From NCBI GenBank assembly GCA_027494135.1, contig JAOSJK010000012.1, positions 253,001 through 317,000 on the forward strand: a stretch of DNA of 64,000 bases, in the 5' to 3' direction. Source of the DNA: Acidimicrobiia bacterium (lineage in GTDB: Bacteria; Actinomycetota; Acidimicrobiia; IMCC26256; PALSA-610). The notes below the pieces were generated by a model, which was not told the origin of the DNA, did not search any database, and saw nothing but the letters and a program-made list of their open reading frames with translations. Of the stretch, positions 62,231 to 64,000 are shown piece by piece; the stretch's first letter is position 1, and every line of letters starts with the position of its first letter. Made by a program: the position numbers and the translations under genes.

Positions 62231-64000
62231 GTGACCGAGGACCAGGTTCCCGCATCGGGCTTGTCGAGGCGCTCGTTCCTCAAGTACTCGGGAGCGGCCG
62301 TCACGGCGACGGCGTTCGTCCGGTACGAGGCGGGCCTCTCATTCCTGCGACCCGCGCAGGGAGTGGGCAACCCCCTCGGGGAGTACCCCGACCGCGATTG
62401 GGAGAGCGTCTACCGCGATCTCTACGCGTACGACGACTCCTTCACCTGGATCTGCGCCCCGAACGACACGCACATGTGCCGCATGCAGGCTTTCGTCCGC
62501 AACGGCGTGGTGCTGCGCAGCGAGCAGAACTACGACGGCGACAACTACAGCGACCCCCAGGGGAACTGGTCGACCGCGCACTGGAACCCGCGCGGCTGCG
62601 CCAAGGGCTTCACGATGCACCGCCGCGTCTACGGGCCGTACCGATCCAAGTACCCGATGCTCCGCCAGGGCTGGAAGCAGTGGGCCGACGACGGCTTCCC
62701 GTCTCTCTCCGACGACCCCGCGCTGCGCACTCGCTACAAGTTCGACGACCGCGGCAACGACGACTACGTGCGCGTCTCCTGGGAGGAGGCGGACGACTAC
62801 TGCGCGCGCGGCCTGCAGGCCGTGGCGCAGACCTACAGCAACGAAGAGGGCAGAACCCGACTGCTCGAGAAGGACGGCTATCCCGAGGAGATGCTCGAGT
62901 TCTGGGAGGAGTCCGGCGTCCGCACGATGAAGTTCGGCTCGTCTCTCCCCATCCACGGGGCCGCGGGCAAGTTCGGTCTCTTCCGATTCGGCAACATGCT
63001 GTCGCTCCTCGACGCCTCCGTTCGCGGCGTGGGCGCTGATGAGGCCAAGGGTGGGCGCGATTGGTCCGAGTACACGTGGCGCGGCGACCAGGCGCCGGGC
63101 TTCCCGTTCGTCCACGGTCTGCAGACGTCCGAGGTCGACATGAACGACATGCGCAACAGCCGCCTGATCGTCATGGTCGGCAAGAACCTCGTCGAGAACA
63201 AGATGGCCGACAGCCACTGGTTCCACGAGACGATGGAGCGCGGCGGGAAGATCGTCTCGATCATTCCCGAGTACGGGCCGCCGTCGAGCAAGTCCGACTA
63301 CTGGATCCCTGTTCGAGCCGGCCTCTCCGACACGGCGCTGATGCTCGGCCTCGCGAAGGCACTGATCGACTCCGACCGCTACGACGCCGACTTCCTCAGG
63401 CGCTTCACCGACATGCCGCTGCTGATCCGCCTCGACACGATGCAGCGCCTCCGTGCCGACGAGGTGATCGCCGGTTACCAGAACGCCCTCGATCCGAACG
63501 GACCGAGCTTCACTCTTCACGGCCTCACGTCTGAGGACTACGCGAAGCTCGGCGATCGCGTCGTCTGGGACGAGGGTCGCGGTGGTGTCACCCCGATCAC
63601 CCGAGACGACGTGGGCGACAAGATGAGCGAGAAGGGCATCCGGCCGGCACTCGACTGGTCGGGCACCATCACCCTCGCCGATGGCACCACCGTCGAGGCG
63701 ATGACGGCAATGGCCATGTACCGTGAGCACCTCGCCGACTACGACCTCGACACCGTCTGCGAGATCACAGGGGCCCCCAAGGACCTCGTCGAGCGGCTCG
63801 TCGAGGACCTGGCCACCATCCGCCCCGTCGGGTTCCACTTGGGTGAGGGGGTCAACCACTACTTCCATGCGACTCTCCACAATCGCGCGATGTACCTCCT
63901 CGCGATGCTCACCGACAGCATCGGGGTGCCCGGTGGATCCGTGAGCACCTGGGCAGGCAACTACAAGGGAGGCGTGTGGCAGGCGGCCCCTTGGTTCGGG
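62231..64000 (+). CDS. nxrA: Tat-exported molybdopterin oxidoreductase alpha subunit, NXR/pNar-like (cut by window end)
   Basis: 590 codons visible without stop. GTG 62231 (GGAGG at 62222-62226) yields a twin-arginine signal, SRRSFLK at 12-18, with a hydrophobic stretch after it. Residues 75-123 hold a 4Fe-4S site of the pattern Cys75-x3-Asp79-x3-Cys83-x39-Cys123, where Asp stands at the second Cys position. YTWRGDQ contains Asp286, the expected Mo ligand of type II DMSO-reductase family enzymes (compare NarG YDWYADLP). WNPRGCAKGF, HRRVYGPYR, KNLVENKM and GEGVNHYFHATLHNRA are, from memory, close to the nitrite oxidoreductase alpha subunit of Nitrospira and to periplasmic-type NarG. Nitrite oxidation or extracytoplasmic nitrate reduction is inferred; other type II substrates are not excluded. 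The beta subunit should follow outside the window. Confidence 0.8.
   Translation, partial: MTEDQVPASGLSRRSFLKYSGAAVTATAFVRYEAGLSFLRPAQGVGNPLGEYPDRDWESVYRDLYAYDDSFTWICAPNDTHMCRMQAFVRNGVVLRSEQNYDGDNYSDPQGNWSTAHWNPRGCAKGFTMHRRVYGPYRSKYPMLRQGWKQWADDGFPSLSDDPALRTRYKFDDRGNDDYVRVSWEEADDYCARGLQAVAQTYSNEEGRTRLLEKDGYPEEMLEFWEESGVRTMKFGSSLPIHGAAGKFGLFRFGNMLSLLDASVRGVGADEAKGGRDWSEYTWRGDQAPGFPFVHGLQTSEVDMNDMRNSRLIVMVGKNLVENKMADSHWFHETMERGGKIVSIIPEYGPPSSKSDYWIPVRAGLSDTALMLGLAKALIDSDRYDADFLRRFTDMPLLIRLDTMQRLRADEVIAGYQNALDPNGPSFTLHGLTSEDYAKLGDRVVWDEGRGGVTPITRDDVGDKMSEKGIRPALDWSGTITLADGTTVEAMTAMAMYREHLADYDLDTVCEITGAPKDLVERLVEDLATIRPVGFHLGEGVNHYFHATLHNRAMYLLAMLTDSIGVPGGSVSTWAGNYKGGVWQAAPWFG

Follow-up and report, generated by a model that had tools for sequence, protein, structure and literature searches.

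Organization of the locus

The window, a stretch of 64,000 nucleotides (G000:C12:253001-317000), belongs to a 3.93 Mb assembly of 80 contigs, a MAG that is 77.5% complete with 4% contamination and with indel errors that split the beta and S genes. Its end very probably holds the first half of nxrA, the opening gene of an extracytoplasmic NXR-type operon of an Acidimicrobiia genome that would work as proposed below (Table 1). The alpha reading frame starts with GTG and is still open at the last letter of the window, and on the assembly contig the complete subunit comprises 1159 residues and stops at 65710. The operon continues beyond the window end in the order alpha-S-beta-delta-gamma-M, with all genes on the same strand. 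Rfam and tRNA scans of the 64-kb window returned nothing besides tRNAs.

Table 1. Features of the NXR-type operon in window numbering; positions above 64000 lie past the window end on the assembly contig.
Feature	Position	Strand	Remarks and basis
nxrA-type alpha, residues 1-590 of 1159	62231..64000	+	sequence homology
Tat signal region of alpha	62261..62359	+	RR at residues 13-14 = 62267-62272
FS0 motif C75-x3-D79-x3-C83	62453..62479	+	substrate Asn78 at 62462-62464; alignment; Kuenenia ligands PMC8387239
C123, fourth FS0 ligand	62597..62599	+	within WNPRGCAKGF; alignment
Asp286, Mo ligand	63086..63088	+	within YTWRGDQAPG; alignment
GEGVNH motif, residues 538-543	63842..63859	+	GEG invariant, NH nearly so in NXR-A clade
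Small ORF S	about 65710-66016	+	frame-shifted
Beta	66016-67244	+	two frames, indel near 66711
Delta, TorD-type chaperone	about 67241-68026	+	
Gamma, haem-b	67990-69009	+	best match NXR-C
Membrane protein M	69006-69992	+	

Identity and active site of the alpha subunit

Among PDB sequences, alpha is matched by Kuenenia NXR-A (7b04) with 1505 bits (E = 0; residues 11-1156, 1146 residues), while perchlorate reductase, ethylbenzene dehydrogenase EbdA and NarG reach 188, 146 and about 104 bits, respectively. The initial annotation had placed the protein with NXR rather than with cytoplasmic NarG and had proposed its comparison with other type II alpha subunits; the scores agree with that placement, since neither PcrA nor EbdA nor NarG comes near the NXR-A value. 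Each of the NCBIfam models for type II, EbdA and narG remains well under its cut-off (124 bits for the narG equivalog, with a cut-off of 1084) and therefore none of these names suits alpha. A canonical NarG or EBDH is ruled out by 104-146 bits as against 1505.

The Tat signal suggested earlier is borne out by the arginine pair, which is kept in all 77 homologues that reach that far N-terminally, with the Pfam TAT_signal model scoring 21.7 bits, slightly below its cut-off of 22.7. The motif also sets alpha apart from cytoplasmic NarG, which is not exported by Tat. In Kuenenia NXR, three Cys and one Asp serve as ligands of the FS0 cluster, with an Asn pointing to the substrate and an Asp coordinating Mo (PMC8387239), and alpha aligns with every one of these residues. 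Across 82 aligned homologues there is no variation at C75, C83, C123, D286 and GEG538-540; N78 is shared by 81, and D79 is present in 71 and replaced by Cys in 11. The Fe-S site and the Asp286 Mo ligand recognized in the initial annotation are thus complete (C75, D79, C83, C123 and Asp286), and the stretches that it singled out are found at residues 118-127 (WNPRGCAKGF), 130-138 (HRRVYGPYR) and 538-546 (GEGVNHYFH). At the level of sequence, the identity of the enzyme and the anatomy of its NXR-type operon are established, and alpha is indeed the catalytic subunit of an exported NXR-type enzyme in an actinobacterium.

Downstream subunits

A beta subunit, a haem gamma subunit and cytochromes had been looked for past position 64000 at the suggestion of the initial annotation; both subunits are present, and there are no c-type cytochrome genes nearby. 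Proteins with CxxCH were likewise absent from the fetched operon neighbourhoods. Judged by homology, beta is an NxrB-type four-cluster subunit: its FR_3 orthologue scores 583 bits to NXR-B over the full length, with the next family at 208 bits, and the two beta fragments of the window genome share 77% and 75% identity with FR_3 beta. Because other conserved genes of the MAG are split alike, the breaks in this gene (beta A) would be assembly indels rather than decay. Frameshifts occur in COX1 (G000:C1:47068-48419), alpha B and beta B, in addition to beta A and S. Gamma is closest to NXR-C and keeps the residues aligned with axial Met155 and Lys305, Met and Lys being the haem-b axial ligands defined for Kuenenia NXR gamma (PMC8387239). 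In most NXR-A operons of the various phyla, Nitrospinota included, alpha and beta are separated by a small conserved ORF of the S kind (about 80-105 aa; e.g. L056:7160-7480 and L011:5711-6016), for which Pfam holds no match.

Distribution and phylogeny

Alpha was found in five of 61 genomes, comprising the window's own and 60 relatives; all five belong to the order, and the other four copies are 70-79% identical to that of the window. Within the same family, all 13 other genomes lack it. At the level of the class, 17 of 395 genomes carry alpha at ≥58% identity, and with about 4% of genomes so equipped the gene is no isolated oddity; seven of the 395 carry a paralogue (B) at 39-42%. The host, taken for a probable actinomycete in the initial annotation, is not a typical one and belongs instead to a class-level Acidimicrobiia group.

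One scan of genome contigs yielded 401 relatives, the best 80 of which come from Acidimicrobiia, Chloroflexota, Planctomycetota including anammox, Nitrospinota, Methylomirabilota, Omnitrophota and others, with no record labelled Nitrospira or Nitrospirota among these best 80. Two trees, from whose references Nitrospira, SerA and ClrA sequences were absent, place the window alpha in a ten-row clade (SH-aLRT 100) made up of Acidimicrobiia and Actinomycetota MAGs, Thermoflexaceae H3_CFX4, UCB2 and one MAG labelled Dehalococcoidia. AU tests reject the grouping of this clade with anammox alone (p-AU 9.5e-10) and with the Nitrospinota pair alone (p-AU 9.6e-45), the p values being somewhat optimistic as the groups were chosen after the first tree. 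In these trees, which leave the place of Nitrospira aside, a separate Acidimicrobiia clade of alpha outside the anammox and Nitrospinota clades is fully supported. Thus, the description of the enzyme as Nitrospira/anammox-type holds for its NXR-A family by score but not for its branching, which lies outside the anammox and Nitrospinota clades in AU tests that had no Nitrospira. Acquisition by transfer is plausible, because alpha is missing in the 13 same-family genomes and a Chloroflexota MAG is nested in the clade.

Comparison with characterized and related systems

The closest characterized counterpart is the anammox Kuenenia stuttgartiensis NXR-ABC (7b04), with 55-57% identity over full-length alpha, homologous beta and gamma subunits, and the same 3Cys/1Asp FS0, Asn, Asp Mo ligand and Met/Lys haem b. 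In contrast, the Acidimicrobiia alpha forms a separate clade, the Acidimicrobiia gamma ends in a C-terminal membrane helix, and the genes run alpha-S-beta-delta-gamma-M instead of the anammox gamma-beta-delta-alpha, M not being found in anammox loci. The Nitrospinota NXR (ARS89, ODZ_NOB7a) similarly has an NXR-A type alpha, S between alpha and beta, and a TorD-type chaperone, but its gamma includes a haem-c domain and lacks the C-terminal helix. In Chloroflexota MAGs (Dehalococcoidia, Caldilineales, Thermoflexaceae), the operons share the short anchored gamma and M, mostly in the order alpha-beta-delta-gamma-M, although their alphas belong mostly to other clades (57-60% identity), with Thermoflexaceae H3_CFX4 nested in the Acidimicrobiia clade.

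The same genome contains paralogue B (G000:C1:494386-497867; L012:6351-12780), a type II alpha that shares the FS0 motif and is accompanied by beta, gamma and delta. It differs from the window alpha in sequence (41% identity), in its GMGPNH and SWHTDLPPG motifs and in the absence of M. Enzymes of Nitrotoga and Hydrogenobaculum are about 40% identical to Kuenenia NXR-A (PMC8387239), and paralogue B would fall in their range. Paralogue B is also present in FR_3 and CSP1-5, and in CSP1-5 it adjoins the NXR-A operon.

Membrane protein M and the architecture of gamma

The last gene of the operon encodes M, a protein of 328 aa. Its predicted structure (trimmed to 315 aa, from 24 sequences) has a mean pLDDT of 90.9, a pTM of 0.88 and about ten long helices, and residues R34, E181, W231 and G234 are invariant. 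Nothing above noise was obtained in Pfam or NCBIfam, a profile search gave no PDB sequence relative, and Foldseek retrieved no similar fold from the PDB (best E 0.35, TM about 0.2). A cytochrome b anchor was considered for M and dropped, with at most one well-conserved His and no fold match.

Occurrence links M closely to the NXR-type enzyme. Among the 61 genomes it is present in exactly the five that have the NXR-type alpha, and G015, which has paralogue B only, lacks it. Of 81 NXR loci 25 contain M, directly after gamma in 21 of them, and all M loci are labelled Actinomycetota or Chloroflexota bar one bacterium that groups with them. The operons of G087, G135, G120, G368, G030 and G056 begin with alpha, continue with S, beta and delta in the same order and close with gamma-M, and every complete Acidimicrobiia operon of the alpha clade has the gamma-M ending. 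M is on this pattern a candidate NXR subunit; it could also be an assembly or accessory factor. A truncated divergent gamma and an M lie at the start of another contig of the window genome (G000:C80:600-2610; L116), which is either a contaminant or holds one more NXR-like operon.

All 27 complete gammas of Actinomycetota and Chloroflexota, assigned to phyla by the labels of the sequence records, display a C-terminal hydrophobic helix (Kyte-Doolittle maximum ≥1.58) and lack CxxCH. In the remaining phyla, gamma as a rule stops just past the haem-b domain, with one or two CxxCH upstream. Exceptions to the latter pattern are SB17, GW328 and second anammox gammas, which have the helix, and the anammox NxrC, which is short and soluble. 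In the textbook view, Actinomycetota and Chloroflexota have no outer membrane. In a cell that has no periplasm, gamma would be fixed to the cytoplasmic membrane and have M as its partner, and diderm forms would instead be fused to a cytochrome c or make use of one. We thus read the NXR-type operon with anchored gamma and M as a monoderm form of NXR, whose parts, M included, seem adapted to cells lacking an outer membrane.

Proposed mechanism and physiological role

Alpha and beta would fold in the cytoplasm, where delta would assist the loading of Mo-bisPGD, and the pair would leave the cell interior through Tat. At the outer surface of the cytoplasmic membrane, nitrite and nitrate would be interconverted at the Mo held by Asp286, and electrons would pass from FS0 (3Cys/1Asp) through the beta clusters to the haem b of gamma with its Met/Lys ligands. 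The gamma subunit would be tethered to the cytoplasmic membrane via its C-terminal helix, beside M, in place of the haem-c domain that gamma has in phyla with an outer membrane, and electrons would be exchanged with a membrane-bound or small cytochrome c of the bcc/caa3 chain. We infer the tethering, the electron partner and the direction.

The window genome encodes COX1 with an adjacent haem-c COX2 (caa3 type), a bc-type cytochrome b and one small cytochrome c. No match to NirK, NirS, RuBisCO or cytochrome bd and no NO-reductase-like COX1 was obtained in this genome, which, being 77.5% complete and affected by indel errors, does not prove absence or intactness of genes. A bd-like oxidase has been reported from nitrite oxidisers and anammox bacteria, with accessory c cytochromes and cupredoxins as further parts of the NOB set (PMC3578206). 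Weak partial matches to this oxidase lie in long frames of the genomes of Nitrospinota and Brocadia; the window genome gave none.

NXR works in both directions in vitro (PMC8387239), and this reversibility leads us to divide the estimate of direction. An aerobic, possibly facultative nitrite oxidation has about an even chance, nitrate respiration somewhat less, and another role a small one. The wider proposal is that Acidimicrobiia and part of the Chloroflexota possess a distinct monoderm NXR, whose haem-b gamma, pinned to the membrane, would stand in together with the new subunit M for the route through periplasmic cytochrome c, and that at least some of these actinobacteria live by nitrite oxidation with it; it is put forward tentatively, as less likely than not.

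The same enzyme may serve nitrate respiration, a reading to which we give slightly less than an even chance; quinol would then feed the bcc complex, cytochrome c and gamma in turn, and nitrate would be reduced to nitrite outside the cell. This agrees with the separation of alpha from the anammox and Nitrospinota clades, with the nitrifier accessory set and RuBisCO not being found, with the reversibility of NXR, and with the interpretation of non-Nitrospinia Nitrospinota enzymes as reductases (PMC10839748). In addition, a NirK-type gene occurs near the operon in the relative G030, along with genes for a NasC-like reductase and a NarI-like protein within about 15 kb, and at least six further type II alphas in the window genome suggest oxygen-independent catabolism, the two of them that were tested being nearest EbdA (738 and 655 bits). 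However, the nearest characterized enzyme is an NXR, the window genome combines an aerobic oxidase with no match to NirK, NirS or NO reductase, and an outward-facing reductase saves less energy.

Another physiological substrate, e.g. the oxyanions chlorate or selenate, is improbable: such enzymes do occur among the type II DMSO-reductase relatives and the genome is rich in type II alphas, but the perchlorate reductase and EbdA scores are 8-10x below that of NXR and the NXR active-site residues are all kept. Less probable still is a binning or contamination artefact that brought in the operon of another organism. The MAG is 4% contaminated and its contig C80 carries the stray divergent gamma and M; against this, the operon lies on a 1.19 Mb contig and recurs in the 17 class genomes. 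As one of these carriers, G087, is a single 2.2 Mb contig, in which biosynthesis-type housekeeping genes flank the operon on both sides, contamination cannot account for the operon.

Relation to earlier reports and significance

Accepted nitrite oxidisers belong to few phyla. If the nitrite-oxidising role holds true for Actinomycetota, the nitrogen cycle would be extended; if the organisms respire nitrate, NXR-type genes alone must not be counted as nitrification. The presence of nxrAB has been noted in deep-sea Actinomycetota UBA5794 MAGs, where it was termed a potential nitrate reductase (PMC13335318; 2026), and KEGG-based calls in Actinobacteriota did not separate NXR from NAR (PMC11411797). 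The kind of enzyme is thus already known, and the clade, M and the envelope-linked split of gamma are apparently undescribed, no description having been found in the open literature, a search outside which most subscription papers fall. The alpha motifs, S, the anchored gamma and M provide testable markers for a class-wide Acidimicrobiia NXR-type lineage. KEGG-number annotation lumps NxrA and NarG together, and the marker set would pick out true NXR-type enzymes. At its electron-exit side, NXR differs according to whether or not a group has an outer membrane.

The further type II alphas of the window genome are located at G000:C1 416-586 kb and C12 745-794 kb (L105-L108, L009, L010), and some of them have beta, gamma and delta homologues nearby, as in an expansion of hydroxylase-like enzymes. 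Look-alike membrane proteins of about 450-490 aa, with no confident Pfam family, lie upstream of the NXR operons in several carriers (L024:7726-9189(-), L112:16553-17908, L029:6259-7617). Other genes near the operon in relatives encode MobB (UBA5794), a DUF2249 protein (SJ254) and a hemerythrin (SJ788).
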